64,000 nt of DNA from Devosia sp. 67-54 (GTDB taxonomy: Bacteria; Pseudomonadota; Alphaproteobacteria; Rhizobiales; Devosiaceae): the NCBI RefSeq assembly GCF_001899075.1, contig NZ_MKVA01000003.1:372001-436000 (forward strand), read 5' to 3'. The notes under the pieces were generated by a model that made no database searches, was not told the DNA's origin, and saw only the letters and a program-made list of their open reading frames with translations. The position numbers and the translations under genes are program-made. Of this stretch, positions 40,568 through 57,071 are shown in pieces; positions within the stretch are counted from its first letter, which is position 1, and each line of letters opens with the position of its first letter.

Positions 40568-43500
40568 TTGGTAAGCCCGGTCGAAACGACGGAGCAGAAC
40601 GGCGTTGCGCCGTTTTTGGATTTCGCTGGTCCACCGCGTCCGCAAACCCCTCTCCGCCAGGCGATCCGTGCCGCCATCCGCCGCCCCGAGCCGGATTGCG
40701 TGCCGCCGCTGATCGCGCAGGCCTCGGTCGATCCGGCCACCGCCGCGCGGATCAAGCGCCTCGCCGCCGATCTGGTGCGCAAGCTGCGCGCCTCCGGCCC
40801 CAGCCAGGGCATCGCCGGCATGATCCAGGAATATTCGCTGTCGAGCGAAGAAGGCGTGGCACTGATGTGCCTCGCCGAGGCGCTGCTGCGCATCCCCGAC
40901 GACGCCACTCGCGACGCGCTAATCCGCGACAAGGTCTCGCGCGGCGACTGGCGCGCGCATCTGGGGCCCGAGCGCACGCTGTTCGTCAACGCCGCCACCT
41001 GGGGCCTGATGGTCACCGGCAAGATTACCGCCGCCATCCCGGAGGAGGGACTGGCGCGGGCGCTGGGCCGGCTCATCGCGCGCGGCGGCGAGCCGATCGT
41101 GCGCACCGGCGTCGATCTCGCCATGCGCATGATGGGCGAGACCTTCGTCTCCGGCCAGACCATCGAGGAAGCGCTGCGCAACAGCCGCCGCCTCGAGCGC
41201 AAGGGCTTCCTCTATTCCTACGACATGCTCGGCGAGGCGGCGACCACCGCTGAGGATGCCGCGCACTACCTCAAGGCCTACGAGGATGCGATCGACGCCA
41301 TCGGCGCCGCCTCGGCCGGCCGTGGCCCCATCGCCGGGCCGGGCATCTCCATCAAGCTGAGCGCGCTGCATCCGCGCTACCGCCGCAGCCAGCTCGACCG
41401 CGTCATGGCCGAATTGCTGCCGCGCCTCAAGGCGTTGGCGGCGCGCGCCAAACGCTACAATATCGGCCTCAACATCGACGCCGAGGAGGCCGACCGCCTC
41501 GACATCTCGCTCGACCTGCTCGAGGCGCTGTGTTTCGACCCCGAGCTCAAGGGCTGGGACGGCATCGGCTTCGTGGTGCAGGCCTACGGCAAGCGCTGCA
41601 CCTTCGTCATCGACTGGCTGATCGACCTGGCGCACCGCAGCGGCCACCGCCTGATGGTGCGGCTCGTCAAGGGCGCCTACTGGGACAGCGAGATCAAGCA
41701 GGCGCAGCTCGACGGCCTCGGCGGCTATCCTGTGTTCACCCGCAAGGTCTATTCCGACGTCTCCTATCTCGCCTCGGCGAAGAAGCTGCTCGCCGCCCGC
41801 GACGCGGTCTTCCCGCAATTCGCCACCCACAACGCCCAGTCCGTCGCCTCGATCTACGAGCTGGCTGGAGCATCGTTCCAGCAGGGCAACTACGAGTTCC
41901 AGTGCCTGCACGGCATGGGCGAGCCGCTCTACGGCAACGTCGTCGGCCCGGACAATCTCGACCGCCCCTGCCGCATCTATGCGCCGGTCGGCACGCACGG
42001 CACGCTGCTCGCCTATCTGGTGCGCCGCCTGCTCGAAAACGGCGCCAACAGCTCCTTCGTCAACCGCATCGGCGACGACTCGGTGCCGGTGGACGAACTG
42101 GTCGCCGATCCGGCGGCGGTGGCCTCCGCCATCGTTCCCGCCGGCGCTCCGCATCCGCAGATCCCGCTGCCCGCCAGCATCCTCGGCGCCCGGCAGAATT
42201 CCGCCGGCCTCGACCTCGCCGACGATCTCGTGCTGGAGCACCTGACCACGCAGTTGCAGGCCGCCGCCGGCACCTGGACTGCGAACCCCATCCTCGTCGA
42301 TGGACCGGCCGGCGGCACGCCGGTCACCCTCCGCAATCCGGCCGACCCCGCCGATATCGTCGGCACCGCGATGTTCGCGCCGCCCGCGCTGGTGGACCGC
42401 GCCTTCGCCGCGGTTACGCCGGGCTGGGCGCCGCTGGCCGACCGCACCCGCATCCTGCGCGATGCCGCCGACCGCCTGCAGGCGCAATTGCCGCAATTTC
42501 TCGGCCTGATGATGCGCGAGGCCGGCAAGTCGGCCGCCAACGGCATCGCCGAAGTGCGCGAGGCCGTCGATTTCCTGCGCTACTACGCCGACCAGGCCGA
42601 GGCCCTGGGCCCCGATGCGGCGCCGCTCGGCACCGTGGTCTGCATCAGCCCGTGGAACTTCCCGCTGTCGATCTTTACCGGCCAGGCCGCCGCGGCGCTT
42701 GCCGCCGGCAACGCCGTGCTCGCCAAGCCGGCCGAGGAGACGCCGCTCACCGCCGCCGCCATGGTCGCTATCCTGCACCAGGCCGGCGTGCCGCGCGCGG
42801 CGCTGCAGTTTCTGCCGGGCGCGGGCGATGTCGGCGCCGCGCTCTGTGGCCACGCCAAGGTCGCCGGTGTCGTCTTCACCGGCTCCAACGAAGTGGCGCG
42901 GCTGATCCAGAAGCAGCTCGCGCCGCGCGGCCCCATCCCGCTGATCGCCGAGACCGGCGGCATCAACGCCATGATCGTCGACAGCTCGGCGCTCACCGAG
43001 CAGGTGGTCAACGACGTGCTGTCCTCGGCCTTCGACAGCGCCGGCCAGCGCTGCTCGGCGCTGCGCCTGCTCTGCCTGCAGGACGACGTCGCCGACCGCA
43101 CCCTGGCGATGCTGAAGGGCGCCATGCAGGAGCTGCGCATCGGCGATCCCGCCGTGCTCGCGACCGATATCGGCCCGGTGATCACCGCCGAGGCGGCCGG
43201 CCGCATCACCGCGCACATCGACGCCATGCGCGCCGCCGGCCACCGCGTCACGCAGACGCCGTTGCCCGGCGGTGCCGGCACCTTCGTGCCGCCGACGCTG
43301 ATCGAGCTCGATCGCATCGACCAGCTCGACCGCGAAGTGTTCGGCCCGGTGCTGCACGTGGTGCGCTACCGCCGCCGCGACCTCGACGGCGTCGTCGATG
43401 CCGTCAACCGCCTCGGCTTCGGCCTCACCTTCGGCCTGCACACCCGGCTCGACGACACCATCGACCACGTCACCGCGCGCATCGCCGCCGGCAATATCTA

Positions 43501-44068
43501 CGTCAACCGCAACATCATCGGCGCCGTCGTCGGCGTGCAGCCCTTCGGCGGGCAGGGGATGTCGGGCACCGGCCCCAAGGCCGGCGGTCCGCTCTACGTG
43601 CGGCGGCTGGTGCGGCAGCGCCCCGCCGACAACGATCTGGCCGAGCTGCTGCCGGGGCCGGTGGGCGAATCCAACCTCTACCGCACCGCGCCACGTGGCC
43701 AAATCCTGCTGCTGCCGCAGACGCGCGAGGGACTGAGCCGCATGCTCGACGCGGTGATCGCCACGCGCAATAGTCCCGTGGTCGACGGCACCGTGGTCGG
43801 CGCCGCCGTGGTGCGAGAGTTGGCGCCGGCGGCGCGGCTGGCGGCGACGCCTGCCACCGAAGCCGGCATCGACGGCGTGCTGGTCGAAGGCGATGCGGCG
43901 CGCGTTGCCGATATTGCTGTGCAGGTGGCGGCGCGTCCCGGCAAGATCGTGCCGGTGCAGTCGGCGGCCGACGTCAACCGCGACATGCTGGTGCACGAGG
44001 TATCGGTCAGCATCAACACCGCCGCGGCCGGCGGCAATGCCAGCCTGATGGCGCTGGGAGAAAGCTGA
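40568..44068 (+). CDS. putA: Bifunctional proline dehydrogenase/P5C dehydrogenase
   Basis: An 1166-residue PutA. The proline dehydrogenase barrel (about 210-480) contains GPGISIKLSALHPRY and RLVKGAYWDSEIK. The aldehyde dehydrogenase half has Glu793 (IAETGG) and catalytic Cys827 in SAGQRCSAL. The C-terminal ~170 residues are the extra domain of long PutA proteins. The first ~40 residues are Pro-rich and have no ribbon-helix-helix, so it should not be a repressor. It oxidises proline to glutamate, using quinone and NAD. Translation must start at the TTG at 40568, since a stop lies in frame at 40535 and no ATG or GTG intervenes. The hydroxyproline genes that follow can feed it proline. Confidence 0.95.
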   Translation: MVSPVETTEQNGVAPFLDFAGPPRPQTPLRQAIRAAIRRPEPDCVPPLIAQASVDPATAARIKRLAADLVRKLRASGPSQGIAGMIQEYSLSSEEGVALMCLAEALLRIPDDATRDALIRDKVSRGDWRAHLGPERTLFVNAATWGLMVTGKITAAIPEEGLARALGRLIARGGEPIVRTGVDLAMRMMGETFVSGQTIEEALRNSRRLERKGFLYSYDMLGEAATTAEDAAHYLKAYEDAIDAIGAASAGRGPIAGPGISIKLSALHPRYRRSQLDRVMAELLPRLKALAARAKRYNIGLNIDAEEADRLDISLDLLEALCFDPELKGWDGIGFVVQAYGKRCTFVIDWLIDLAHRSGHRLMVRLVKGAYWDSEIKQAQLDGLGGYPVFTRKVYSDVSYLASAKKLLAARDAVFPQFATHNAQSVASIYELAGASFQQGNYEFQCLHGMGEPLYGNVVGPDNLDRPCRIYAPVGTHGTLLAYLVRRLLENGANSSFVNRIGDDSVPVDELVADPAAVASAIVPAGAPHPQIPLPASILGARQNSAGLDLADDLVLEHLTTQLQAAAGTWTANPILVDGPAGGTPVTLRNPADPADIVGTAMFAPPALVDRAFAAVTPGWAPLADRTRILRDAADRLQAQLPQFLGLMMREAGKSAANGIAEVREAVDFLRYYADQAEALGPDAAPLGTVVCISPWNFPLSIFTGQAAAALAAGNAVLAKPAEETPLTAAAMVAILHQAGVPRAALQFLPGAGDVGAALCGHAKVAGVVFTGSNEVARLIQKQLAPRGPIPLIAETGGINAMIVDSSALTEQVVNDVLSSAFDSAGQRCSALRLLCLQDDVADRTLAMLKGAMQELRIGDPAVLATDIGPVITAEAAGRITAHIDAMRAAGHRVTQTPLPGGAGTFVPPTLIELDRIDQLDREVFGPVLHVVRYRRRDLDGVVDAVNRLGFGLTFGLHTRLDDTIDHVTARIAAGNIYVNRNIIGAVVGVQPFGGQGMSGTGPKAGGPLYVRRLVRQRPADNDLAELLPGPVGESNLYRTAPRGQILLLPQTREGLSRMLDAVIATRNSPVVDGTVVGAAVVRELAPAARLAATPATEAGIDGVLVEGDAARVADIAVQVAARPGKIVPVQSAADVNRDMLVHEVSVSINTAAAGGNASLMALGES

Positions 44069-44074
44069 GTGGAG

Positions 44075-44824
44075 CTATTTGCGCGATCGGCGGACGGGAG
44101 CAATTTTGTCGCCGAGGCGCATCGTCGCCGTGACGTCGCGGGCGATGTAGCTCTGGATCTGCTTGACGATCTGCGCCGCGTGCTGGGTCGCCAACTCGTC
44201 GCAGCGCTCGGCGTCGCCCTTGTCGATGGCGACGATCATCGCCTCGTGCTCGTCGACATATTTGCGCGGCAGATGGTCGTCGAACGAGGCGTAATAATAG
44301 AGCCTGAGCAGCCGCCGTCCCTCGTCCAGCAGCCGCGTGAACCAGCGGGTGAAATAGGCGTTGCCGCCGGCCTCGGCGATGGCGAGGTGGAACTCGCGGT
44401 TGGTCGAGATCATCCCCACCGCGTCGCTGCGCTCCACCGCCTCGACGTAATCCGCCTGCGCCGCGCGGATCACCTCGATCTGCGCCGGCGTCCGCCGCAG
44501 CGCCGCCGCCCGGGTGGTAACGCGATACATCAGCGTCAGCGCCTCGAAATACACCGGCAGCTTCTCGAAATCGATCGGCGCCACCACGGTGCTGCGGTTG
44601 GGCAGGGCGGTCACCAGCCCGTCGGCCATCAGCCGCACCAGCGCCTCGCGGATCGGCGTGCGCGACATCGCGAACTGCTTGCTCAGCCGCACCTCGTCGA
44701 GCGGGCTGCCCGGCGGCAGCTCCAGATTGACGATCGCCGACTGCAGCCGCTCATACACCGTCTGCACCCCGGCGCCGCGCACCGGCCGGGTCGTGCCTGT
44801 CATGGTCGATGCCCGATTGGCCAT
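44075..44824 (-). CDS. GntR-family (FCD) regulator, hydroxyproline-linked
   Basis: A 249-residue regulator. A winged helix-turn-helix (about 18-80) has the GntR motif LSKQFAMSRTPIREALVRL. An FCD ligand domain (~95-230) includes NREFHLAIAEAGGN and His-rich positions that usually bind a metal-carboxylate ligand. It is divergent from the ABC importer and catabolic genes. An imperfect palindrome between them is the likely operator, and it supports the start at 44824, because an upstream ATG at 44905 would place the operator in the coding region. It is expected to repress the island until a hydroxyproline-type ligand binds. Its stop is 6 bases from that of putA. Confidence 0.85.
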   Translation of the reverse strand: MANRASTMTGTTRPVRGAGVQTVYERLQSAIVNLELPPGSPLDEVRLSKQFAMSRTPIREALVRLMADGLVTALPNRSTVVAPIDFEKLPVYFEALTLMYRVTTRAAALRRTPAQIEVIRAAQADYVEAVERSDAVGMISTNREFHLAIAEAGGNAYFTRWFTRLLDEGRRLLRLYYYASFDDHLPRKYVDEHEAMIVAIDKGDAERCDELATQHAAQIVKQIQSYIARDVTATMRLGDKIAPVRRSRK

Positions 44825-44867
44825 CGGTTCCACACTCCATTTCCCCTTCGATTGACACGAAATCCGT

Positions 44868-44899
44868 CTGCGTGCAATCTGTCGACAAGATGCATGCAG
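44868..44899. promoter_or_regulatory. Candidate GntR operator with -35-like element
   Basis: A 32-base imperfect palindrome centred on TGTCGACA, with CTGC/GCAG ends and TGCA arms; only eight positions break symmetry. It lies 44 bases before the regulator start and 89 bases before the importer gene. A TTGACA hexamer (44852-44857) lies just upstream; a -10 could not be fixed. Bidirectional autoregulation is the simplest reading. Confidence 0.55.
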
Positions 44900-44987
44900 A
44901 AGCATCGGCAGTCGCCCGTATCGTGTCGGTCGTTAAGAGCCGTTTTCGGGCGGCGCACGTGAACACACTGCAACAGGGAGACCATCT

Positions 44988-46088
44988 ATGAAACTGACCA
45001 TGACCTCGGCACTCGCCGGCCTGACGCTGGCTCTGGCGCTCAGCACCGCAACCTTTGCTGCCGACATCAAGATCGGCGTCCTCGTGCCCACCACCGGCGG
45101 CCAGGCGAGCTACGGCCAGGACATGGCCAACGCCGTGCAACTCGCCATGGACGAGCTCAACAAGGCCGGCGGCGGCAACACCTATTCGATGGTCGTCGGC
45201 GACGATGGCTGCGATCCGCAGCAGGCGGTGAACGCCGCCACCAAGCTCGCCTCCTCCGGCATCGCCGGCGTGGTCGGCGGCTATTGCTCCGGCGCCACCA
45301 TCCCGACGCTGAAGATCTTCGGCGACGCCAAGCTGCCCTTCATCATCACCGCCGCCAACTCCACCAAGCTGATCCCGGCCAATCCGGGCAACGCCTTCAT
45401 GATCAACTCGACCGGCAACGACCAGGTCGCCAAGGCCATCGACGTGTGGAAGGCCAAGGGCGTCAAGTCGCTGGCCATCGTCAACGAAGGCGACGCCTAC
45501 AGCCAGGATCTGGCGACGCTGGCGCAAAAGAGCTTCACCGAAGGCGGCGGCACCGTTGCCGATTTCGAGACGGTCAACCACGGCGAGCAGGACTTTTCAT
45601 CCGTCGTCACCAAGATCAAGGCGGCCAACCCGGACGCCGTGTTCTGGACGGCCTATGACGACGACGGCGGCCCCTTCATCAAGCAGCTCCGCGAGGGCGG
45701 CTACCAGGGCGCGATCTATGTCGGCGACGGCTCGACCTCGACCAATCTGCTCAAGCTCGCGGGCGACGCGTCGGAGGGCGTCTTCGCCTTCTCGAGCCCG
45801 ACCGCCGAGTTCCTGCCCGACGCCAAGGCCTTTGCCGATGCCTACCAGGCCAAGTTCAACGTCGCGCCCAGCTCCTACGGCCCGCTCACCTATGACGGCA
45901 TGAAGCTGCTCGCCGACGCCATCAGCAAGGCCGGCGGCACCGACAGCGCCAAGGTCATCGATGCGCTGTCGAAGGAAGACTACAAGGGTCTCGCCGGCGA
46001 AATCAGCTTCCGGCCCGACCACACCCTGGCCCGCTCGAACTTCATCGTCATCGAGGCCAAGGGCGGCGCCTGGGCCCTGGCCCAGTAA
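44988..46088 (+). CDS. ABC importer substrate-binding protein (LivK-like)
   Basis: A 366-residue periplasmic protein with a signal peptide (about 1-24, ending TFA-AD). The mature protein begins IKIGVLVPTTGGQASYG, the normal N-lobe start of branched-chain-type (HAAT) binding proteins. It has the typical GVVGGYCSGATIP and SNFIVIEAK segments. Two cysteines (DDGCDP and GGYCSG) probably form a disulphide. AGGGAGA precedes the ATG. It should capture the substrate for the permeases and ATPases encoded next. The genes around it are for hydroxyproline breakdown, so hydroxyproline or a derivative is a better guess than leucine. This is inferred from context. Confidence 0.9.
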   Translation: MKLTMTSALAGLTLALALSTATFAADIKIGVLVPTTGGQASYGQDMANAVQLAMDELNKAGGGNTYSMVVGDDGCDPQQAVNAATKLASSGIAGVVGGYCSGATIPTLKIFGDAKLPFIITAANSTKLIPANPGNAFMINSTGNDQVAKAIDVWKAKGVKSLAIVNEGDAYSQDLATLAQKSFTEGGGTVADFETVNHGEQDFSSVVTKIKAANPDAVFWTAYDDDGGPFIKQLREGGYQGAIYVGDGSTSTNLLKLAGDASEGVFAFSSPTAEFLPDAKAFADAYQAKFNVAPSSYGPLTYDGMKLLADAISKAGGTDSAKVIDALSKEDYKGLAGEISFRPDHTLARSNFIVIEAKGGAWALAQ

Positions 46089-46201: not shown

Positions 46202-47116
46202 ATGACCTTGACCACCATCCTGTTGCAGCAATTGGTGAACGGCCTGGTGCTGGGCTCGTTCTACGCGCTCGTCGCGCTCGGCTACACCATGGTCTTCGGC
46301 GTGGTGAAGCTGCTCAATTTCGCCCATGGCGATCTCTACATGGTCGGTGCCTTCATCGGCCTGCTCGCCCTGTCGCTGGTCGCCGGCGCCGTCGGCACGA
46401 GCTGGGTCGGCGTCGGGCTCGCCATCCTGCTGTCGATGCTCGCCGTCGGCTTCTTCGGCGTCTTTATCGAACGCATCGCCTACGCGCCGATGCTGAAGGC
46501 TCCGCGGCTGTCCATCCTCATTACCGCGCTCGCCGTCTCGCTGGTGCTGCAGAACGGCGTTCTGTCGCTGACCGGCGGCCAGGTCATGCCGTTCAGCCCC
46601 AAGCTCGGCTTCGCCGGCATCAATCTGGGCGACATCTTCATCAACTACAAGCAGATCGCGCTCGCCGGCGCCGCCGCGGTGCTGATGCTGGCACTCGAGC
46701 TGTTCGTCTCCCGCACGCAGTATGGCCGCGCCATGCGCGCCGTGTCGGTCGACAAGGACATGTCCGAGCTGATGGGCATCGACGTCAACCGCATCATCGC
46801 CGTCACCTTCTTCGTCGGCACCGCGCTCGCCGCCGCCGCCGGCACCATGGCCGGGGCCTATTACGGCTCGATCTGGTACTTCATGGGCTTCCTCATCGGC
46901 CTCAAGGCCTTCACCGCCGCGGTCATCGGCGGCATCGGCTCGATCCCCGGCGCCATGCTCGGCGGCCTGGTGCTCGGCCTGCTCGAAAGCTTCGGCACGC
47001 AGATCCCCGGCATCGGCAGCGCCTGGAAGGACGTGTTCTCGTTCTCGGTGCTGATCCTGGTGCTGGTGTTCAAGCCCACGGGACTTCTCGGCAAATCCGA
47101 ACAGGAGCGCATGTGA
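46202..47116 (+). CDS. ABC importer permease, LivH-like
   Basis: A 304-residue membrane protein with about eight segments. Typical LivH features are LVLGSFYALVALGYTMVFGVVKLLNFAHGD, spread over the N-terminus, and the GALLIGLKAFTA-like coupling region, here LIGLKAFTAAVIGGIG near residue 240. It forms one half of the membrane channel. It follows the binding protein after a stable hairpin, and its stop overlaps the second permease start (TGATG). The substrate is set by the binding protein, so it is not given a liv name. Confidence 0.9.
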   Translation: MTLTTILLQQLVNGLVLGSFYALVALGYTMVFGVVKLLNFAHGDLYMVGAFIGLLALSLVAGAVGTSWVGVGLAILLSMLAVGFFGVFIERIAYAPMLKAPRLSILITALAVSLVLQNGVLSLTGGQVMPFSPKLGFAGINLGDIFINYKQIALAGAAAVLMLALELFVSRTQYGRAMRAVSVDKDMSELMGIDVNRIIAVTFFVGTALAAAAGTMAGAYYGSIWYFMGFLIGLKAFTAAVIGGIGSIPGAMLGGLVLGLLESFGTQIPGIGSAWKDVFSFSVLILVLVFKPTGLLGKSEQERM

Positions 47117-48111
47117 TGGCGCTCGAACCCGGCTCACCCGGCCCGCAATCGGTGGTCTCCCGGCCCAGCGCCTGGGGCGGCCTCGGCCTCCTGCTCGACA
47201 CTCCCGCCAAGCGCGCCGCCGCCATCGTCGTGATCCTCGCCGCCATGGTCGCGGCGCCGCTGCTCGGCCCCTACGCCGTGGTGATCCTCACCAACGCGCT
47301 GCTCTACACCATCCTCGCGCTCGGCCTGAACATCGTCGTCGGCTATGCCGGCCTGCTCGATCTCGGCTACGCCGCCTTCTTTGCGGTTGGCGCCTATTCG
47401 GTGGGCATCCTCACCACCGTCTTCGGCTGGAATTTCTGGGCCACGATCCCGGTCGCGGTACTCGCCGCCGTCTGCGCCGGCATCATCATCGGCGGCCCGA
47501 CGCTCAGGCTGCGCTCCGACTACCTCGCCATCGTCACCCTCGGCTTCGGCGAGATCGTGCGCATCGCCGCGCGCAATCTGCAGATCACCGGCGCCGCCAG
47601 CGGCATCTCCGGCATCGAACAGCCCTGGCTGTTCGGCTGGCACATCGCCGGCTCCACCGATTTCTACTACGTCTTCCTGCTGCTCGCGGTCATCGGCATC
47701 TTCGTCTCCGTGCGCCTCGCGAGATCGCGGCTCGGCCGCGCCTGGCTCTACGTCCGGCACGACGAGGATGCCGCCGAGGCCATGGGCATCGACCGCGTGC
47801 GGGTGAAGCTCGCCGCCTACATCATCGGTGCCATCTACGGCGCCATCGGCGGCGCCTTCTTCGCGGTGAACTTCACCGCCATCTCGCCGCAGAGCTTCTC
47901 CTTCCAGCAGTCGACGCTGTTCCTGATGGCGGTGATCCTGGGCGGCATGGGCAAGATCCCGGGCGTCATCCTCGGCGCCTTCATCGTCGTGCTCGGCCCC
48001 GAGCTGCTGCGCGACCTCGGCAGCTTCCGCTATCTCGTCTTCGCGGTCGGCCTGCTGCTGATCATGCTGTTCCGCCCCAGCGGCATCTGGCCGAGCGGAG
48101 CGAAACGCTGA
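47116..48111 (+). CDS. ABC importer permease, LivM-like
   Basis: A 331-residue membrane protein. It begins with a ~35-residue cytoplasmic tail, followed by eight or nine segments with LivM motifs: ALGLNIVVGYAGLLDLGYAAFFAVGAY (split), TLRLRSDYLAIVTLGFGEIVRI and the coupling helix EDAAEAMGIDRVRVKL. It is the second channel subunit. Its start shares the TGATG junction with the first permease and its stop overlaps the ATPase gene in the same way, so the importer genes are translationally coupled. Confidence 0.9.
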   Translation: MALEPGSPGPQSVVSRPSAWGGLGLLLDTPAKRAAAIVVILAAMVAAPLLGPYAVVILTNALLYTILALGLNIVVGYAGLLDLGYAAFFAVGAYSVGILTTVFGWNFWATIPVAVLAAVCAGIIIGGPTLRLRSDYLAIVTLGFGEIVRIAARNLQITGAASGISGIEQPWLFGWHIAGSTDFYYVFLLLAVIGIFVSVRLARSRLGRAWLYVRHDEDAAEAMGIDRVRVKLAAYIIGAIYGAIGGAFFAVNFTAISPQSFSFQQSTLFLMAVILGGMGKIPGVILGAFIVVLGPELLRDLGSFRYLVFAVGLLLIMLFRPSGIWPSGAKR

Positions 48112-48899
48112 TGGCCCTGCTCGACCTCAAGGGCGTGTCCCTCGGCTTTGCCGGCAATCGCGTGCTGCAGGATGTGAGCTTTGCCGTCGACGCGGGCGCC
48201 ATCGCCAGCCTCATCGGCCCCAATGGCGCCGGCAAGACCTCGCTGTTCAACTCCATCACCGGCTTCTACAAGCCGCAGCGCGGCAGCATCGTGTTCGACG
48301 GCGTCGAGACGCGCCGCATGAAGCCGCACCAGGTGACGCGCGCCGGCATCGCCCGCACCTTCCAGAACGTCCGCCTGTTCCGCGAAATGAGCGTGCTCGA
48401 AAACGTCATGTCGGGCCAGCATTGCCGCTCGCGGGCGGGGGCCATCGGCGCCGTGCTGCATTTGCCGGCGCAGCAGCGCGAAGAGGCGCACATCCACGAC
48501 GTCGCCGCCGGCTGCCTGCGCTTCGTCGGCATCGATCCGGCCGAGTGGGAGCGCGACGCCACCACCCTCGCTTACGGCCACCAGCGTCGCGTCGAGATCG
48601 CCCGCGCCCTTGCCACCGAGCCCAAGCTGCTGCTGCTCGACGAGCCCGCCGCCGGCCTCACCAAGGGCGAGAAGGCCGAGCTGGTGACGCTGATCGCTCG
48701 CATCCGCGACGAGCGCGGCGTGGCGGTGCTGCTTATCGAGCACGACACCGGCCTCGTGATGTCGATCTCCGAGCGCGTCAGCGTGCTCGACCACGGCGTC
48801 ATGATCGCCGAGGGCACGCCTCGGGAAATCCAGGCCAACCCCCGGGTGATCGAAGCCTATCTGGGCAGCGAAGACGCGGAGGCCGCCCTTGCGCTCTGA
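48111..48899 (+). CDS. ABC importer ATPase, LivG-like
   Basis: A 262-residue ATPase. Walker A is GPNGAGKTS, the Q-loop region GIARTFQNVRLF, the signature is degenerate (LAYGHQRRVEIARAL, the normal LivG form), the Walker B LLLLDEPAAGLTKGE, and the switch His is in LLIEHDTGLVMSI. It powers the importer together with the LivF-like subunit. Its start overlaps the permease stop. The end overlaps the next gene by 11 bases. Confidence 0.92.
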   Translation: MALLDLKGVSLGFAGNRVLQDVSFAVDAGAIASLIGPNGAGKTSLFNSITGFYKPQRGSIVFDGVETRRMKPHQVTRAGIARTFQNVRLFREMSVLENVMSGQHCRSRAGAIGAVLHLPAQQREEAHIHDVAAGCLRFVGIDPAEWERDATTLAYGHQRRVEIARALATEPKLLLLDEPAAGLTKGEKAELVTLIARIRDERGVAVLLIEHDTGLVMSISERVSVLDHGVMIAEGTPREIQANPRVIEAYLGSEDAEAALAL

Positions 48900-49614
48900 A
48901 GCTCCGGTCGTGCTGTCCCTCAAGGGCGTCGAAGCGGGCTACGGCCGCATCCGCGCGCTGCACGGCATCGATCTCGAAGTCCGCGCCGGCGAGATCGTGA
49001 CGCTGCTCGGCGCCAACGGCGCCGGCAAGACCACCACGCTCAAGACCATCTCCGGCCTCGTCCGCGCCACTGCGGGCTCGGTCACCTTCGAGGGCCAGGA
49101 ACTGGTCGGCAGGAAGGCCAGCGACATTGCCCGCCTCGGCGTCGTGCACGTGCCGGAAGGCCGCCACGTGCTGCGCGGCCTCAGCGTGCGCGAAAACCTC
49201 GAGCTCGGCGGCTTCACCGTTGCCGATCCAAAGCTCCGCCGCGAGCGCCTCGAGCACGCCTTCAGCCTGTTCCCCATCCTCCGGGAGCGCCAGCACCAGG
49301 ACGGCTCGCTGCTGTCGGGCGGCGAGCAGCAGATGCTTGCCATCGGCCGCGCCCTCATGCACGGCCCCAAGGTGCTGCTGCTCGACGAGCCGTCGATGGG
49401 CCTCGCCCCCAAGCTGGTGCTCGAAACCTTCCGCATCATCCGCGACCTCAACCAGACCGGCGTCACCATCCTTTTGGTCGAGCAGAACGCCCGCCTCGCC
49501 CTCAAGCTCGCCGACTACGGCTACGTCCTCGAAACCGGCGCCGTCCGTATGGCGGGCGACGCCGAGACGCTCGGTGCCAGCACCTCTATCGTGGAGGCGT
49601 ACCTTGGCGCGTGA
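48889..49614 (+). CDS. ABC importer ATPase, LivF-like
   Basis: A 241-residue ATPase with Walker A GANGAGKTT, signature LLSGGEQQMLAIGRAL, Walker B VLLLDEPSMGLAP and switch region LLVEQNARLALKLA. The typical LivF VHVPEGRHVLRGLSVREN segment is present. Translation starts at a TTG inside the end of the LivG-like gene, preceded by GCGGAGG. This completes a five-gene importer (binding protein, two permeases, two ATPases). The next gene is on the opposite strand, so the importer transcript probably ends here. Confidence 0.92.
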   Translation: MRSEAPVVLSLKGVEAGYGRIRALHGIDLEVRAGEIVTLLGANGAGKTTTLKTISGLVRATAGSVTFEGQELVGRKASDIARLGVVHVPEGRHVLRGLSVRENLELGGFTVADPKLRRERLEHAFSLFPILRERQHQDGSLLSGGEQQMLAIGRALMHGPKVLLLDEPSMGLAPKLVLETFRIIRDLNQTGVTILLVEQNARLALKLADYGYVLETGAVRMAGDAETLGASTSIVEAYLGA

Positions 49615-49665: not shown

Positions 49666-50430
49666 TTACCCCAGCGTCTTGTATCCCAGCCCCGTGGTCG
49701 CCTGCAGGGCGGCGCCCGGCACGTCGAACCAGCCTTTCTCCAGCAGCTCCGCGCGCACCCGCTCGTTGAGCCCGCCGCGGGTCTGGTGCTCCGCGGCCAG
49801 CCCGTCGAACGATTGCGCCGGCGTATGCCTGGCGGTGTCGGCCAGCATGCCGAGCAGCGACACCACATAGCTGCGCGCTTCGGTTTCGCTGAGCCCGGCT
49901 CCGGTGCCGACGTCGATCAGCGCCCGCTGCAGCTCGAAATAGCTCGACATGAAGGCGCTGAGCCCGCCGAACTGCAGCCGCCGCTCGTCCGCCGCCACGA
50001 ACAGGTCGCCCAGCGGCGCCATCAGCCGCACGATCTCGGGCACCGCCGGATAGGTCGCCATCGGCCCGACGCCGCGCGCGATGCCGGGCAGCGGCACGAA
50101 GCGGCACGCCGTCGCCTGCGGCCAGCGCGCCTTGATCTCGGCGAGGCCGAAGCCGGCCACCATGCTCGCCACGATCTGGCCCTTGTCGAAGCTTATGCCC
50201 GCCATCGCCTCGTCGAGATGCGCCGGGCGCATGCCGAGGAACACGATGTCGGCCCTGGCCACCTCGGCGTTGGAGCCGGCGCGGCTGACGTTCCGGAATT
50301 TCGCGGCCAGCGCCAGCGACGTGCTCTCCGAGCGCGGCGAGACCACGATCTCGGGCGCCTCGGGCAGCGACTGCAACCCCTCGATCACGGCCGCCGAAAT
50401 CGTGCCCGTGCCGATGAATCCGATTTGCAT
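49666..50430 (-). CDS. ProC-family pyrroline reductase-like protein
   Basis: A 254-residue protein with an N-terminal NAD(P) Rossmann motif (IGFIGTGTISAAVIEGL) and a C-terminal helical dimerisation domain (EARSYVVSLLGMLADTA and QTRGGLNERVRAELLEKG), as in pyrroline-5-carboxylate reductase. The family acts on five-membered cyclic imines, so pyrroline-5- or pyrroline-2-carboxylate are both plausible substrates. It is the only gene of the island on the minus strand. It is divergent from the deaminase gene with only 33 bases between. A housekeeping proline-biosynthetic role is less likely in this context. Confidence 0.8.
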   Translation of the reverse strand: MQIGFIGTGTISAAVIEGLQSLPEAPEIVVSPRSESTSLALAAKFRNVSRAGSNAEVARADIVFLGMRPAHLDEAMAGISFDKGQIVASMVAGFGLAEIKARWPQATACRFVPLPGIARGVGPMATYPAVPEIVRLMAPLGDLFVAADERRLQFGGLSAFMSSYFELQRALIDVGTGAGLSETEARSYVVSLLGMLADTARHTPAQSFDGLAAEHQTRGGLNERVRAELLEKGWFDVPGAALQATTGLGYKTLG

Positions 50431-50463: not shown

Positions 50464-51372
50464 ATGACACTCACCTGGCGCGGCGTCATCCCCGCATTGA
50501 TGACCGAGATGAAGCAGAATGGCGATCTCGATTTCGAGGCCACCGCCCGGCACATCGACTCCTGCCTGAGCGCCGGCTGCGAAGGCTTCGTCATGCTCGG
50601 CACCCTCGGCGAGAATTCCTCGCTGGCGCCCGAGGAGAAGGACGCCGTCGTCGCCGCCGCCGTGAAGGCGGTGAAGGGCCGCGTCCCGGTCGTCGCCGGC
50701 GTTGCCGAATACACCACCAGGCTCGCCATCGACGCCGCCAACCGCATGGGCAAGGCCGGCGCCGCCGGCATCATGGCGCTGCCCACCATGGTGTACCAGA
50801 CCGACGCGCGCGAGAGCATCAACCACTTTCGCACGCTGGCCCGCAACACCGACCTGCCGATCATGATCTACAACAATCACGTGGCCTACAAGGTCGATCT
50901 CAAGCCCGAGGATTTCGCCGAGCTCGCCAGCGAGAAGAACATCGTTGCGGTCAAGGAATCGAGCCACGACAGCCGCCGCATCACAGACATGATCAACCGC
51001 CTCGGTGATCGCTACGCCATCGTCTCCGGCGTCGACGATCTGTTCCTCGAGAATGCGCTGTTCGGCGCCGTCGGCTGGGTGTCGGGCCTCGCCAATTCGT
51101 TCCCGCGCGAAGCCGTGCAGCTCTACAGGCTCGCCAAGGCGGGCAAGCTGGCCGAGGCGGTCGAGCTCTACCGCTGGTTCATGCCGCTGCTGCATCTCGA
51201 TGTGGCGACCAAGCTGGTGCAGTACATCAAGCTCGCCAACCAGATGACCGGCGAGGGCAGCGAATGGGTGCGCGCGCCGCGCCTCACCCTTGAGGGCGAG
51301 GAGCGCCGGAAGATCGCCGCCGTCATCCAGCACACCATCGACACCCGTCCGCAACTGAAGCTGGTGGCCTGA
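50464..51372 (+). CDS. Pyrroline-4-hydroxy-2-carboxylate deaminase (DapA family)
   Basis: A 302-residue DHDPS/NAL-superfamily barrel. The Schiff-base Lys164 is in IVAVKESSHDS and the partner Tyr136 in IMIYNNHVAYK. GTLGENSSLAPEEK is the usual substrate loop, with the GTTGE of DapA changed to GTLGE. In this gene neighbourhood it should convert pyrroline-4-hydroxy-2-carboxylate to alpha-ketoglutarate semialdehyde and ammonia, the HypD/LhpC step of trans-4-hydroxyproline breakdown. It begins the plus-strand catabolic run and ends 8 bases before the FAD dehydrogenase gene. A general DapA role is unlikely. Confidence 0.85.
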   Translation: MTLTWRGVIPALMTEMKQNGDLDFEATARHIDSCLSAGCEGFVMLGTLGENSSLAPEEKDAVVAAAVKAVKGRVPVVAGVAEYTTRLAIDAANRMGKAGAAGIMALPTMVYQTDARESINHFRTLARNTDLPIMIYNNHVAYKVDLKPEDFAELASEKNIVAVKESSHDSRRITDMINRLGDRYAIVSGVDDLFLENALFGAVGWVSGLANSFPREAVQLYRLAKAGKLAEAVELYRWFMPLLHLDVATKLVQYIKLANQMTGEGSEWVRAPRLTLEGEERRKIAAVIQHTIDTRPQLKLVA

Positions 51373-51380: not shown

Positions 51381-52619
51381 GTGGACGCGGAAATCGTCAT
51401 TGTCGGCGCCGGCATCGTCGGCCTCGCGAGCGCGTTCAAGCTCGCCGAGGCCGGCCGCGCGGTGCTGCTGGTCGATCGCAAGGGCATGGCCGAGGAAACC
51501 AGCCGCGGCAATGCCGGCGCCTTCGCCTTCTCCGACATCATGCCGCTCGCCACCAAGGACGTGCTGCGCAAGCTGCCGAAATGGCTGGGCGACCCGCTGG
51601 GGCCGCTCACCGTGCGTCCCGAATATCTGGCGCAGATCACCCCGTGGATGCTGCGCTTCTGGCGCGCCGGCTGGCCCGACCGTGTCGCCGCCGGCGTCAA
51701 GGCGCAGGCGGCGCTGATGCGTCTTGCCCGCGCCGAGATGGAGGCGCTCGTCGCCGCCGCCGGCATCGCCAGCCTCGTGCGCTCCGACGGTGTGCTCGAG
51801 CTCTACGAGAGCGAGGCCGAGCTCCGCCGCGCCCAGCCCGAGATCGACGCCAAGACCCGCGAGGGCATCGAGATCCGCATCGTCCGCGGCGCCGATCTGG
51901 CCGCGCTGCAGCCGGGGCTCGATCCGCGCTTCGTCGCCGCTACCTTCATCCCGAAATGGCAGACCGTCAGCGATCCCTACGAGTTCGCGCTCGCCATCGG
52001 CAAGGCCGCTACCGCTCGCGGCGTCGCCTTCCGCCAGGCCGAGGTCAAGGCGCTGCGCCCGCTGGGGCAGGGGGCCGCCCTCGATTTCGCCGATGGCACG
52101 TCGCTCACCGCCGGCAAGGTGGTGGTGGCGTGCGGGGCCTGGTCGCGCCGCCTCACCGCGCCGCTCGGCGATCTCATCCCGCTCGACACCGAGCGCGGCT
52201 ACAACACCACGCTGCCGCCCGGCGCCTTCGACCTTCGCCGCCAGCTCGTCTTTCCCGGCCACGGCTTCGTCGTCACGCCGCTGTCGACCGGCATCCGCGT
52301 CGGCGGCGCCGTCGAGTTCGGCGGCCTCGACCTGCCGCCCAACTTCAAGCGCTCCGACGCGATGCTGAAGAAGGCCGCCCTGTTCATGCCCGGCCTCAGG
52401 ACCGAAGGCGGCCGCCAGTGGATGGGCTCTCGCCCGTCGCTGCCGGATTCGCTGCCGGCCATCGGCCGCTCGCGTCCGTCGCCGCATATCCTCTATGCCT
52501 TCGGGCACGGCCATCTCGGCCTCACCCAGTCGGCCGCCACCGGCCGGCTGCTCGCCGATCTCGTGACGGGCGCGGCCCCGTCGCTCGACCTCGCGCCGTT
52601 TTCGCCGCAACGCTTCTAG
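51381..52619 (+). CDS. D-hydroxyproline dehydrogenase, DadA-like flavoprotein
   Basis: A 412-residue DAO-family protein. FAD is bound by IVIVGAGIVGLASAFKLAEAG at the N-terminus and by FGHGHLGLTQSAATGRLLADL near the C-terminus. ETSRGNAGAFAFSDIMP is the DadA-type loop. It should oxidise cis-4-hydroxy-D-proline, the epimerase product, to pyrroline-4-hydroxy-2-carboxylate and pass electrons to the respiratory chain. The start is a GTG 8 bases after the deaminase stop. Single-subunit enzymes of this type (HypO in Sinorhizobium) differ from the three-subunit form of Pseudomonas. Other D-amino acids cannot be excluded. Confidence 0.85.
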   Translation: MDAEIVIVGAGIVGLASAFKLAEAGRAVLLVDRKGMAEETSRGNAGAFAFSDIMPLATKDVLRKLPKWLGDPLGPLTVRPEYLAQITPWMLRFWRAGWPDRVAAGVKAQAALMRLARAEMEALVAAAGIASLVRSDGVLELYESEAELRRAQPEIDAKTREGIEIRIVRGADLAALQPGLDPRFVAATFIPKWQTVSDPYEFALAIGKAATARGVAFRQAEVKALRPLGQGAALDFADGTSLTAGKVVVACGAWSRRLTAPLGDLIPLDTERGYNTTLPPGAFDLRRQLVFPGHGFVVTPLSTGIRVGGAVEFGGLDLPPNFKRSDAMLKKAALFMPGLRTEGGRQWMGSRPSLPDSLPAIGRSRPSPHILYAFGHGHLGLTQSAATGRLLADLVTGAAPSLDLAPFSPQRF

Positions 52620-52631: not shown

Positions 52632-53633
52632 ATGGCACGCCACACCTTCTCCTGCATCGATGGCCACACCTGCGGCAACCCCGTGCGTCTGGTCAGCGGC
52701 GGCGGGCCGCTGCTCAAGGGCTCCACCATGATGGAGCGGCGCGCCGACTTCCTTGACCATTGGGACTGGATCCGCAAAGGCCTGATGTTCGAGCCGCGCG
52801 GCCACGACATGATGAGTGGTTCGATCCTCTATCCCTCGACGCGCGACGATTGCGACATCTCGGTGCTGTTCATCGAAACCTCGGGCTGCCTCTATATGTG
52901 CGGCCACGGCACCATCGGCACCGTTACCATGGCCATCGAGAACGGCCTGGTGCAGCCGAAGACGCCCGGCGTCGTCAATCTCGACGTCCCCGCCGGCAAG
53001 GTGGTGGCCGAGTATACGATGGACGGCGAGTACGTGGATGAGGTGCGCCTCACCAACGTACCGAGTTTCCTCCATTCGCGCGACCTCGAGATCGACTGCC
53101 CCGGCCTCGGCAGGCTCACCGTCGACGTCGCCTATGGCGGCAATTTCTACTGCATCGTCGACCCACAGGAGAACTTTTCCGACCTCGCCGACGTGTCGGT
53201 TGGCGATCTGCTGCGCTGGAGTCCCGTTCTGCGCCGGGCGATGAACGAGCGCTACAGCTTCTTTCACCCCGAGAACGACAACATCAAGGGCTGCACCCAC
53301 ATCATGTGGACCGGCCGGCCGCTGCAGCCCGGCTCCACCGCCCGCAACGCCGTGTTCTACGGCGACAAGGCCATCGACCGCTCGCCCTGCGGCACCGGCA
53401 CCTCCGCCCGCATGGCGCAGTGGTTCGCCCGCGGCAAGCTCAAGGTCGGCGACGCCTTCATCCATGAATCGATCATCGGCTCCATCTTCAAGGGCCGCGT
53501 CGAGCAGGCGGTGCGCGTCGGCAACCTCGACGGCATCGTCCCCTCCATCGCCGGCTGGGCTCGCCAGACCGGCATCAACACCATCTTCATCGACGACCGC
53601 GACCCCTTCGCCCACGGTTTTTCGCTTGTCTGA
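52632..53633 (+). CDS. 4-hydroxyproline 2-epimerase
   Basis: A 333-residue proline-racemase-family protein with both catalytic cysteines: Cys90 in MCGHGTIG and Cys253 in DRSPCGTGTSARMA. The Cys/Cys pair indicates an epimerase or racemase rather than a dehydratase. MARHTFSCIDGHTCGNPVRLV is the usual N-terminus of hydroxyproline 2-epimerases. It inverts C2 of trans-4-hydroxy-L-proline to give cis-4-hydroxy-D-proline for the neighbouring dehydrogenase. It is preceded by 12 bases and followed by a palindromic repeat. Confidence 0.92.
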   Translation: MARHTFSCIDGHTCGNPVRLVSGGGPLLKGSTMMERRADFLDHWDWIRKGLMFEPRGHDMMSGSILYPSTRDDCDISVLFIETSGCLYMCGHGTIGTVTMAIENGLVQPKTPGVVNLDVPAGKVVAEYTMDGEYVDEVRLTNVPSFLHSRDLEIDCPGLGRLTVDVAYGGNFYCIVDPQENFSDLADVSVGDLLRWSPVLRRAMNERYSFFHPENDNIKGCTHIMWTGRPLQPGSTARNAVFYGDKAIDRSPCGTGTSARMAQWFARGKLKVGDAFIHESIIGSIFKGRVEQAVRVGNLDGIVPSIAGWARQTGINTIFIDDRDPFAHGFSLV

Positions 53634-53660
53634 TCCTGTCGCAAGATTAGCGGTTCCGGC

Positions 53661-53780: not shown

Positions 53781-53798
53781 GGTCGAAGGACAGCATCC

Positions 53799-54902
53799 AT
53801 GAAAATCACCGCCATCCGCATCTACCAGGTCGATCTCCCGCTCCGCGAAGGCCGCTACAACTGGTCGGGCGGCAACTTCATGGAAGTGTTCGACTCGACC
53901 GTGGTCGCCGTCGAGACCGATGCCGGCATCACCGGCTATGCCGAATGCTGCCCGCTCGGCTCGGCCTATCTGCCCAGCTACGCCAGGGGCGTGCGCGCCG
54001 GCCTCGACGAGATCGGCCCGAAGCTCATTGGCCACGACCCCACCGACCTCTGGCCGCTCAACCACCACATGGACGCGGTGCTGCGCGGCCACCCCTACGT
54101 CAAGGCGCCCATCGACATCGCCTGCTGGGACATTCTCGGCCAGGTCGCCGGCCTGCCGGTGTACAAGCTGCTGGGCGGCGGCGAGCAGGATAAAATTGCG
54201 CTCTACCGCGCCATCAGCCAGGAAGACGCCGGGCGTATGGCTGAAAAGATCGCCGGCTACCGCGCCGAAGGCTACACCAAGTTCCAGCTCAAGGTCGGCG
54301 GCGATGCGGCCGACGACATCGCCCGCATCCGCGCCTGCCGCGCCATCCTCGCGCCCACCGACATTCTCGTCGCCGACGCCAACACCGGCTGGACCAAGGC
54401 CGACGCCGCCCGCGTCGTCGCCGCCGTGCGCGACCTCGACGTCTATATCGAGCAGCCCTGCATGACCTACGAGGAAAGCCTTTCCATCCGCCGCCGCACG
54501 GCGCTGCCCTTCGTCCTCGACGAGAACATCGGCTCGGTGCAGGATCTGGTAACGGGCATCGCCGAGGACGCCTTCGACGTCATCAACCTCAAGATTTCCA
54601 AGGTCGGCGGCCTCACCAAGGCAAAACAGATGCGCGACCTCTGCGTCAGCCACTCCATCCCGATGACCATCGAGGACACCTGGGGCGGCGACATCGTCAC
54701 CGCCACCATCGCGCACCTCGCCCGCTCGACGCCCGAGCGCTTCTGCTTCACCGCCACCGACTTCAATTCCTACGTCACTGTCTCCACCGCCGACGGCGCC
54801 CCCCGACGCGAGCACGGCTTCATGACCGCCTCCGACCAGCCCGGCCTCGGCGTTACCCCCAAATGGGACGTGCTGGGCGATCCCGTGCAGGTGATCCGAT
54901 GA
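53799..54902 (+). CDS. Enolase-superfamily, probable cis-3-hydroxyproline dehydratase
   Basis: A 367-residue mandelate-racemase/muconate-lactonising-type protein. A capping domain covers ~1-125 ([27 protein letters not shown]). The barrel carries a catalytic Lys165 in FQLKVGG, metal ligands in [15 protein letters not shown] and LDENIG, and the second base Lys in LKISKVGG. The same motif pattern (QxK and W-GGDI) occurs in cis-3-hydroxy-L-proline dehydratases and in hydroxyproline-betaine 2-epimerases. The adjacent trans-3-hydroxyproline dehydratase and pyrroline-2-carboxylate reductase favour the dehydratase. An epimerase for proline or hydroxyproline betaine remains possible. Confidence 0.75.
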
Positions 54903-54918
54903 GAGTATCGTGCGCGCT

Positions 54919-55010: not shown

Positions 55011-55029
55011 ACACCCACCCGGGCCAGCC

Positions 55030-56064
55030 ATGAGAACCACCCGTTCCATCGACATCGTCTCCTGCCACGCCGAGGGCGAGGTCGGCGACGTCATCGTCGG
55101 CGGCGTCGCGCCACCGCCCGGCGACACGCTGTGGGCCCAGTCGCGCTTCATCGCCACCGACCAGACGCTGCGTAATTTCGTCCTCAACGAGCCGCGCGGC
55201 GGCGTCTTCCGCCACGTCAATCTGCTGGTGCCGCCGAAAAATCCGAAGGCGCAGATGGGCTTCATCATCATGGAGCCCGAGGACACGCCGCCGATGTCGG
55301 GCTCCAACTCCATCTGCGTCGCCACCGTCCTGCTCGACACCGGCATCGTGCCGATGACCGAGCCCGAGACCCGCCTCACGCTCGAAGCTCCCGGCGGCCT
55401 CGTCGAGATCGTCGCCCAATGCCGTGACGGCAAGGCCGAGCGCATCACCGTCACCAACGTCCCGAGCTTCGCCGATCGCCTCGATGCAAAACTCGAGGTC
55501 GAGGGCCTGGGCACGCTCACCGTCGACACCGCCTATGGCGGCGACAGCTTCGTCATCGTCGATGCCGACGCGCTCGGCTTCGCCGTCGTTCCCGACGAGG
55601 CGCGCGATCTCGCCGAGACCGGCATCCGCATCACCCGCGCCGCCAACGAGCAATTGGGCTTCCGCCACCCCACCAATCCCGACTGGACGCACTATTCCTT
55701 CTGCCAGATCGCCCGCCCGGTGGAGCCGCGCGATGGCCTCCTGACCGCCGCCAACGCCGTCGCCATCCAGCCCGGCAAGATCGACCGCTCGCCCACCGGC
55801 ACCGGCGCCTCCGCCCGCATGGCGGTGCTGCGCGCCAAGAGGCAGATGCAGGTCGGCGACCGCTATCTCGCCCGCTCCATCATCGGCTCGGAGTTTCTGG
55901 GCCGCATCGAGGCCGACACCATGCTGGGCGGCAAGCCCGCCATCATCCCCTCGATCTCCGGCCGCGCCTGGATCTGCGGCAAGCGTACCGAGATGCTCGA
56001 TCCTGCCGACCCCTGGCCCCAGGGCTACAAGCTCTCCGACACCTGGCCGCGGATCGCCCCGTGA
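55030..56064 (+). CDS. trans-3-hydroxy-L-proline dehydratase
   Basis: A 344-residue proline-racemase-family protein. The positions equivalent to the catalytic cysteines are Ser90 ([10 protein letters not shown]) and Thr256 ([14 protein letters not shown]). Loss of the second Cys to Thr is the mark of 3-hydroxyproline dehydratases, which remove water instead of racemising. The product is pyrroline-2-carboxylate, the substrate of the reductase encoded next; the two genes overlap by GTGA. The Ser at the first position differs from the better-studied Cys/Thr type. The overall size and the rest of the motif match the family. Confidence 0.82.
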
Positions 56065-57071
56065 CCGACGCGCGCATCTCCACCGCCGACCTCGCCGCGC
56101 TGCTCGCCATCATCTTCCGGCGCCACGGCTGCAGCGACATCGTCGCCAAAACCCTCGCCGACAACATGGCGGCCGCCGAGCGCGACGGCGCCCACAGCCA
56201 CGGCGTCTTCCGCGTCGCCGGCAATCTCGGCTCGCTCGACAGCGGCTGGGTCGACGGCAGGGCCGTTCCCACGCTCGAGGACGTGGCTCCGGGCGTGCTG
56301 CGCGGCGACGGCCACAACGGCTTTTCGCTGCCGCTGCTGGAGCTGGCGCGCGCCCCGCTGATGGCCAAGGCCCGCCAGAACGGCCTCGCCATGCTCAGCG
56401 TCCGCAACGCCCATCATTTCAGCGCCGTCTGGCCCGACATCGAGCCCTTCGCCCGCGAGGGCTTCGTGGCGCTGGCCATGATCAACTCCATGTCGAACGT
56501 CGTTCCACACGGCGGCAGGACGCGCCTCTACGGCACCAACCCCATGGGCTTCGCCGTGCCGCGCGATCCCGACCCCATCGTCTTCGACCAGGCCTCGTCG
56601 GGCTGGTCCAATGGCGACGTGCAGATCGCCCGCCGCGAGGGCAGGGCGCTCCCTCCGGGCATCGGCGTCGACCGTGACGGCAACCCCACCACCGATCCCG
56701 ACGCCGTGCTCGAGGGCGGCGCGCTGCTGCCCTTTGGCGGCCACAAGGGCTCGTCCATCGCCATGATGATGGAGATCATGGGCGCCGCGCTCGCCGGCGG
56801 CGACTATTCGTGGGAGATCGACTGGAGCCGCCATCCCGGCGCCGCCACGCCGCATGGCGGCCAGACCTACATCCTCATCGACCCCAACCGCGGCAACGCC
56901 CGCAATTTCGCCGCCCGCATCGAAACCCTGGTCGAGGCCATCCACGCCGCCGGCCAGCAGCGCCTCCCCGGCGACCGCCGCTACGCCAACCGCCGCATCA
57001 ACACCGCCCAGGGCATCCCGCTCCCCGCCGAAACCCTGAACCATCTCCGCGCCCTCGCCGAAGACCGCTGA
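56061..57071 (+). CDS. Pyrroline-2-carboxylate reductase, Ldh2 family
   Basis: A 336-residue protein of the malate/L-lactate dehydrogenase (Ldh2) family. Family features are [35 protein letters not shown] with the catalytic-type His, [21 protein letters not shown] and [17 protein letters not shown]. Members such as DpkA and LhpI reduce pyrroline-2-carboxylate and piperideine-2-carboxylate with NAD(P)H. Here it should turn the dehydratase product into L-proline for PutA. It starts with a GTG that overlaps the stop of the dehydratase gene. It is the last gene of the island; dusA follows after 77 bases. Confidence 0.85.

Follow-up and report, generated by a model that had tools for sequence, protein, structure and literature searches.

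The locus described here lies in a window of 64,000 nucleotides from Devosia sp. 67-54 (contig NZ_MKVA01000003.1, positions 372,001 to 436,000), which was analysed for genes of proline and hydroxyproline catabolism. Between window positions 39992 and 57071, intact open reading frames (ORFs) were found in the order Lrp-family regulator (minus strand), putA, GntR regulator (minus), livK-livH-livM-livG-livF, ProC-like gene (minus), DapA-family lyase, DadA-like dehydrogenase, first racemase-superfamily gene, enolase-superfamily gene, second racemase-superfamily gene and Ldh2-family reductase (Table 1). An earlier note, made from the letters alone, had described positions 40568 to 57071 as a single catabolic block. 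The genes that it named are all present as intact ORFs where it placed them, and they are contiguous, but they do not share one strand, as the GntR and ProC-like genes are on the minus strand. The Lrp-family gene, divergent from putA, sits just outside the start given in that note. It had also counted seven catabolic genes while naming six enzyme genes beside putA, and the unnamed seventh must be the ProC-like gene. Overall, the observation was confirmed and the interpretation was partly supported.

Enzymes encoded in the block

The Pfam scan covered ten block proteins and placed each of them in a clear family; LivH, LivM, LivG, LivF and the Lrp-family protein were outside the scan. The two racemase-superfamily genes are the only such matches in the genome. 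The first product exceeded the cut-off of the 4-hydroxyproline epimerase model by a wide margin (Table 1), while it reached 305.5 bits against the proline racemase model, whose cut-off is 556. It carries Cys90 and Cys253, exactly as noted earlier, and by score and residues it corresponds to the two-cysteine 4-hydroxyproline 2-epimerase of hyp/lhp clusters. In an alignment to 6j7c, counted by hand, its Ser62 and His223 stand at the positions of F62 and L221 of the archaeal racemase. According to excerpts of PMC4364671, Phe at the first of these sites may be restricted to racemases, His at the second could be specific to epimerases, and the changes F62S and L221H mimic natural epimerases. From the matching residue numbers, also counted by hand, we infer that 6j7c is the archaeal enzyme of that study.

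The gene adjoining the epimerase gene would encode a DadA-like dehydrogenase of the homomeric type, as in hyp/lhp clusters; its product is 56.5% identical over 99% to that of a gene on pSymB of Sinorhizobium meliloti and stays under the DadA cut-off. The DapA-family protein, which is proposed to deaminate Δ1-pyrroline-4-hydroxy-2-carboxylate (Pyr4H2C), belongs to the DHDPS family and reached no NCBIfam cut-off. It has Ala in place of the Arg of the SRT stretch of 2ehh, a residue that we take to matter in DHDPS. The possibility that it is the lysine-pathway enzyme of the cell was rejected in view of this substitution and of the ten DHDPS-family matches in the genome, the strongest of which is at contig C5.

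No alpha-ketoglutarate-semialdehyde dehydrogenase, a member of hyp/lhp clusters, was found in the block, which holds only the domain of PutA among the 14 aldehyde dehydrogenase places in the genome. Since a Streptomyces hydroxyproline operon likewise goes without this gene, according to excerpts of PMC6608401, its absence can be regarded as variation within the kind. Five of the 14 aldehyde dehydrogenases were scanned against NCBIfam models, and the one encoded at C5:237798-239171 was the sole one with the alpha-ketoglutarate-semialdehyde dehydrogenase model as its best match. Across half its length or more, it shares 63-66% identity with aldehyde dehydrogenases in 10 of 80 loci of relatives (see below), where these stand beside DadA or epimerase genes. 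This dehydrogenase may therefore serve the hydroxyproline pathway; its neighbours suggest that it is shared with a sugar-acid pathway. An action of the aldehyde dehydrogenase domain of PutA on the semialdehyde was also considered.

Both dehydratases of the 3-hydroxy branch were recognised by curated models. The second racemase-superfamily protein combines a score above the cut-off of the trans-3-hydroxy-L-proline dehydratase (T3LHypD) model with Ser90 and Thr256, and its closest solved chains are 4k8l and 1tm0, both named proline racemase, and 4k7g, named 3-hydroxyproline dehydratase. Excerpts of PMC4364671 assign the Ser-Thr pair to type II T3LHypD. The enolase-superfamily protein, which also corresponds to its expected type (cis-3 dehydratase), shares Lys165, Asp193, Glu218, Asp241 and Lys265 with 4mgg in the alignment, and these residues presumably have catalytic roles. 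Its eight best relatives (L003-L010) show 86-90% identity and come from seven Devosia records and one Rhizobiales record. The Ldh2-family protein passed no NCBIfam cut-off; it matched 1wtj/2cwf, a delta1-piperideine-2-carboxylate reductase, with 404 bits over residues 6-333, the next chain reaching 142 bits. By this closeness it would be a reductase of Δ1-pyrroline-2-carboxylate (Pyr2C) or piperideine-2-carboxylate. PutA, the sole PF14850 match in its genome, is predicted from its Pfam domains to be trifunctional, with DNA-binding, proline dehydrogenase and aldehyde (Δ1-pyrroline-5-carboxylate, P5C) dehydrogenase parts.

Table 1. Genes and conserved site of the block, in window coordinates, with the matches on which the names are based
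Feature	Position	Strand	Basis
Lrp/AsnC-family regulator	39992..40495	-	NCBIfam Lrp PRK11169 200.5 bits (cut-off 233, not reached); 88% identical gene adjoins putA in L110
putA: proline dehydrogenase, aldehyde (P5C) dehydrogenase, N-terminal DNA-binding domain	40568..44068	+	Pfam PF01619, PF00171, PF14850, PF18327
GntR/FCD regulator, HypR-like	44075..44905	-	Pfam GntR and FCD; 53% identity to GntR gene of S. meliloti pSymB hyp cluster
ATTGAC box and operator-like TGTCGACAAGATGCATGCA, upstream of importer	44851..44898	+	conserved across aligned loci
LivK-type substrate-binding protein	44988..46088	+	Pfam PF13458
LivH-type permease	46202..47116	+	ORF; order kept in Devosia loci; named by eye
LivM-type permease	47113..48111	+	ORF; order kept in Devosia loci; named by eye
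LivG-type ATPase	48111..48899	+	ORF; order kept in Devosia loci; named by eye
LivF-type ATPase	48889..49614	+	ORF; order kept in Devosia loci; named by eye
ProC-like reductase	49666..50430	-	F420_oxidored Pfam domain; PRK06476 157.6 bits (cut-off 254, not reached)
DapA-family lyase, proposed Pyr4H2C deaminase	50464..51372	+	PF00701; dapA model 179.5 bits (cut-off 206, not reached)
DadA-like FAD dehydrogenase, proposed cis-4-hydroxy-D-proline dehydrogenase	51381..52619	+	PF01266; 56.5% to S. meliloti pSymB gene
4-hydroxyproline 2-epimerase, Cys90/Cys253, Ser62, His223	52632..53633	+	PRK13971 601 bits (cut-off 376)
Enolase-superfamily cis-3 dehydratase	53799..54902	+	NF043002 716.5 bits (cut-off 500); closest solved chain 4mgg, 604 bits
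trans-3-hydroxy-L-proline dehydratase, Ser90/Thr256 type	55030..56064	+	NF047722 641.8 bits (cut-off 550)
Ldh2-family reductase, proposed Pyr2C reductase	56061..57071	+	PF02615; closest solved chain 1wtj/2cwf, 404 bits

The window also contains six copies, at up to 2 mismatches, of a GC-rich palindrome, CCTCCCCCTTGCGGGGAGG, against a chance expectation of 0.00 (18896-18914, 22632-22650, 22693-22711, 53666-53684, 53743-53761 and 54975-54993), three of them between catabolic genes of the block.

Conservation, the putative GntR site and putA

Loci of relatives were collected with the enolase-superfamily gene as anchor, and the best 80 of 192 were compared, 59 of which span at least 20 kb and 21 less than 20 kb. 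Apart from the ProC-like gene, the genes from GntR to Ldh2 stand in the same order in the Devosia loci L003 and L008, as well as in L007, which lacks DapA, and in L009, which lacks DapA and a GntR match. Because this order recurs in relatives, the block is more than a chance assembly. LivK was matched at 55% identity or more in 8 of the 80 loci, all from Devosia records except L009; seven of them (L003, L004, L005, L007, L008, L009 and L054) keep the same order and L029 is rearranged. In L004, L005, L007 and L009 about 35-75 bases separate the LivF and DadA matches, with no DapA between them; for three of these (L005, L007 and L009), the genome carries its closest DapA relative, of 48-49% identity, on a different contig. 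The importer genes are missing at the locus of the genus genome G003, where a LivF remnant of 37 codons (L110, 10166-10276) stands in front of the ProC-like gene; no dehydratase match was found in that stretch.

The earlier note had called the presence of both branches side by side unusual. With matches required to reach 60% identity across half the length or more, the epimerase was present in 42, the trans-3 dehydratase in 54 and both in 32 of the 80 loci, counts that are biased by the anchor and by the 21 short loci. Two racemase-superfamily genes lie within 10 kb of each other in 10 of the 19 genus genomes (own included, judged by eye), some others being split by contig ends, and in 17 of the 121 genomes of the order (own included), a count in which the members of the pair are not told apart and from which racemase rows below 74 bits were omitted. 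S. meliloti carries such a pair as well. Excerpts of PMC4113996 describe several species with adjacent 4HypE and t3HypD genes that use both substrates, and those of PMC5144071 state that such clusters are often related to the trans-4, cis-3 and trans-3 isomers. The idea that the combination is rare was therefore rejected; co-occurrence of both branches is ordinary.

The GntR protein, with its GntR and FCD domains and its similarity to the regulator of the S. meliloti cluster, is of the HypR type. When seven loci were aligned, the site at 44851-44898 showed columns that are invariant in all 7, and the pattern TGYCGACAAKNTGCATGCA is present in L003, L004, L005, L007, L008 and L009 besides the own copy. 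In these six relatives TGTCGACAAGATGCATGCA, with the ATTGAC box upstream, stands in front of livK with small changes, and its core TGTCGACA fits the FadR-subfamily pattern TKGT/ACMA as quoted in excerpts of PMC6608401. At up to 1 mismatch, TGTCGACAAGATGCATGCA occurs at one place in the whole genome (reversed control, 0); no further copy was found in this search beyond the one before livK. The conserved site runs into the opening codons of the GntR gene when this is read as its longest ORF, so that translation probably begins at Met28 instead, at 44824 by a count made by hand. The site is a putative operator of the GntR protein, and we infer that this one operator serves the importer and catabolic genes together and that putA has a separate control of the Lrp type; the divergent Lrp-family gene is the likely regulator of putA.

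Linkage of putA is uncommon, and rarer than the pairing of both branches: of 58 genomes of the order that carry PutA as well as a racemase-superfamily gene, 3 (own included) have the two no more than 15 kb apart. This count likewise omits racemase rows below 74 bits, and also two PutA rows, a fragment of 72 bases in G067 and one under the cut-off in G026. In five further order genomes the distance is 10.9-30.2 kb (G041:C1082, G059:C16, G074:C1, G099:C1 and G116:C1). Within the genus, a 75% identical PutA was found, besides the own genome, only in G003, beside the cluster, and in G012, at a contig end. Among the other 16 genomes, 14 have a PutA of 51-53% identity, G016 a fragment and G017 none at that level. 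None of these 51-53% copies shares a contig with a racemase-superfamily gene except in G004, where they are 2.3 Mb apart; G014 has no racemase-superfamily gene, and in fragmented assemblies the two could still be linked beyond a contig end.

Proposed pathway and its alternatives

Taken together, these results indicate that the block is very probably a catabolic locus of the hyp/lhp type, here linked to putA, in a bacterium of the Devosia group. The Liv-type ABC importer would take up (hydroxy)prolines. In the 4-hydroxy branch, the epimerase, the DadA-like dehydrogenase and the DapA-family deaminase would act in turn to yield alpha-ketoglutarate semialdehyde, which the unlinked aldehyde dehydrogenase on C5 would convert to alpha-ketoglutarate. 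In the 3-hydroxy branch, each isomer, trans and cis, would have its own dehydratase, the two belonging to unrelated families, and the product of both, Pyr2C, would be reduced to L-proline by the Ldh2-type enzyme; PutA would then oxidise L-proline to glutamate. From the one site before livK, the HypR-like GntR protein probably keeps the operon of importer and catabolic genes repressed. This pathway, as deduced from homology, is well supported, three proteins (epimerase, cis-3 and trans-3 dehydratase) being over the cut-offs of curated equivalog models and the closest solved chains fitting the cis-3 dehydratase, the trans-3 dehydratase (4k7g) and the Ldh2 enzyme. The assignments that the earlier note had made for the epimerase, both dehydratases, the Pyr2C-reductase-type enzyme and PutA as sink for L-proline are borne out in the same way. 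Its view of PutA as a sink shared by both branches holds for the 3-hydroxy branch and L-proline, but the 4-hydroxy branch needs a dehydrogenase that is absent from the block. The bacterium may, as that note suggested, draw on hydroxyprolines from collagen or plants.

Several observations weigh against this interpretation. The DapA, DadA and Ldh2 proteins are under every curated cut-off, so that their exact substrates rest on context; the DapA protein is merely 30% identical to its S. meliloti counterpart, and four loci (L004, L005, L007 and L009) carry the cluster without it. The S. meliloti DapA and aldehyde dehydrogenase stretches themselves gave no NCBIfam match at E 1e-50. The candidate dehydrogenase on C5 reached 538 bits against a cut-off of 770, and its flanks, a FAH-like gene on one hand and a LacI-like regulator with a ribose-type transporter on the other, have the look of a sugar locus when read by eye. 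The closest solved chain to the epimerase is the proline racemase 7pb3 (280 bits), and a pattern search of the genome found no copy of the GntR site at putA.

Some known members of the DadA and Ldh2 families use D-proline and Pyr2C as substrates, and D- and L-proline could be the main natural substrate here, with the racemase-superfamily enzyme, DadA and Ldh2 converting D-proline via Pyr2C to L-proline for PutA and with hydroxyproline being secondary. The closest solved chain of the epimerase and the linkage of putA would suit such a route, as would G003, which keeps putA and the ProC-like gene with the DapA-DadA-epimerase half, has no dehydratase match in the stretch and has one racemase-superfamily gene in its genome (the enolase-type gene was not sought genome-wide there). 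We regard it as improbable, as it leaves two 3-hydroxyproline-family dehydratases and a DapA-family gene without a role, and the epimerase has the HypE-type Ser62 and His223 and favours the 4-hydroxyproline epimerase model over that of proline racemase. Even less credit is given to a betaine route, in which the enolase-superfamily enzyme would be a 4-hydroxyproline-betaine epimerase and the rest would demethylate and degrade its product. Related proteins with that activity belong to the same region of this superfamily, and chains such as 4h2h and 2pmq match the protein at 202 bits, but no demethylase is among the genes listed for the block, and this route is highly unlikely.

A further possibility, compatible with a hyp/lhp-type locus, is that putA is a mere neighbour, Lrp-putA and GntR-importer-catabolism being two units joined by rearrangement and not co-regulated. 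The single GntR site away from putA, the divergent Lrp gene of putA and the genus distribution, with the 75% PutA confined to three genomes and the 51-53% PutA of 14 of the other 16 unlinked in the contigs seen, all speak for it. On the other side, G003 keeps the Lrp-putA-GntR linkage though its importer genes are gone, and the pathway chemistry connects putA with the catabolic genes. We regard this explanation as somewhat less likely than not. As a pathway, the hyp/lhp-type locus fits known biochemistry, and it illustrates the modular variation of such loci, which differ from one another in the type of importer and in the presence of DapA, dehydrogenase and putA.

The ProC-like gene and comparison with known systems

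The ProC-like gene is the only new lead of the block. Its product shares the F420_oxidored domain with ProC and PRK06476 and gives weak matches to models of the pyrroline-5-carboxylate reductase type, but it stays below all six that it matched, PRK06476 included. A separate ProC, over the cut-off, is encoded at C5:125230. Where this own ProC has the loop SPKGTT, the ProC-like protein has TRGGLNE, and TxGG[LIV]NE was found in 15 of 15 distinct rows, the window included. Neither score nor loop thus marks it as a P5C reductase. It occurs in 3 of the 19 genus genomes, each time adjoining DapA: livF and dapA flank it in the own genome and G012, the livF remnant and dapA in G003. In other lineages, homologues stand beside GntR and a DapA-DadA-aldehyde dehydrogenase set in Rhizobium NZLR1, beside GntR, Ldh2 and a racemase-family gene in Rhizobium N324 and BT03 as well as in G041, and directly after a DapA-family gene in G056 and G097, G056 being cut by a contig end. 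In L124 and L125, read partly by eye, a GntR gene, a racemase-superfamily gene of 42-43% identity, two hydantoinase/oxoprolinase-subunit-like genes and a DapA-ProC-like pair were seen.

It is conceivable, though on present evidence rather doubtful, that this gene encodes an undescribed imine reductase of hydroxyproline/proline catabolism, beside the DapA-family step. It may, for example, return 3-hydroxy-P5C, a product of mistaken oxidation that would arise if PutA attacked trans-4-hydroxy-L-proline, or reduce Pyr2C or Pyr4H2C. Against such a role, no match was found in the stretches of the 80 enolase-anchored loci or in 16 of the 19 genus genomes, and in the order sample a racemase-superfamily gene stands no more than 15 kb away at just 4 of the 41 places (own included), as counted by eye. 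The closest homologues outside the genus (41-44%) include L127 and L132, which, read by eye, lie among other oxidoreductase genes, and no DapA or racemase match was found in L126-L128. Among eight plasmid loci, a racemase, DapA or Ldh2 match was present in L136, L139, L141 and L142 and none in L135, L138, L140 and L143; the Rhizobium plasmid loci share their other flank and are not independent. If such a role is real, a pathway regarded as complete would gain a further enzymatic step, and a function could be assigned to the proteins that many Rhizobium plasmids encode under the annotation pyrroline-5-carboxylate reductase. Judged by titles, a literature search found nothing on a ProC gene in hydroxyproline clusters and nothing concerning these genes for Devosia and hydroxyproline, and a search for Liv-type hydroxyproline importers led nowhere.

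Among known systems, the hyp cluster on pSymB of S. meliloti (NC_003078, 258-280 kb) resembles the block in its GntR (53%), DadA-like (56%), epimerase (71%), T3LHypD (73%) and Ldh2 (39%) genes, which lie within about 13 kb, the epimerase and T3LHypD both being over the cut-offs. It differs in its distant DapA (30%), in an aldehyde dehydrogenase of 30% inside the cluster and in an importer that excerpts of PMC5343134 name HypMNPQ; its stretch gave no LivK, LivH or LivM match, one ATPase match of 28%, and no match to the enolase-type cis-3 dehydratase, putA or the ProC-like gene. Excerpts of PMC5144071 list an aconitase-X type gene, SMb20269, for S. meliloti. They also describe LhpJ of the L-hydroxyproline cluster of Labrenzia (Roseibium) aggregata IAM 12614 (L055), which unlike our block has an epimerase-like match of 32%, a DapA-like match of 29% and no Liv-type importer, Ldh2 or putA match in 13.4 kb ending at a contig end. 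In Shewanellaceae and Aeromonas, proline (putA) and hydroxyproline genes are predicted under one GntR regulator, HypR, according to excerpts of PMC5343134, whereas here a single site, putatively that of the GntR protein, lies before livK and none at putA. Finally, as in the 4HypE/t3HypD neighbour pairs in excerpts of PMC4113996, the epimerase and the trans-3 dehydratase share one neighbourhood, but in Devosia sp. 67-54 the enolase-type cis-3 dehydratase sits between them.

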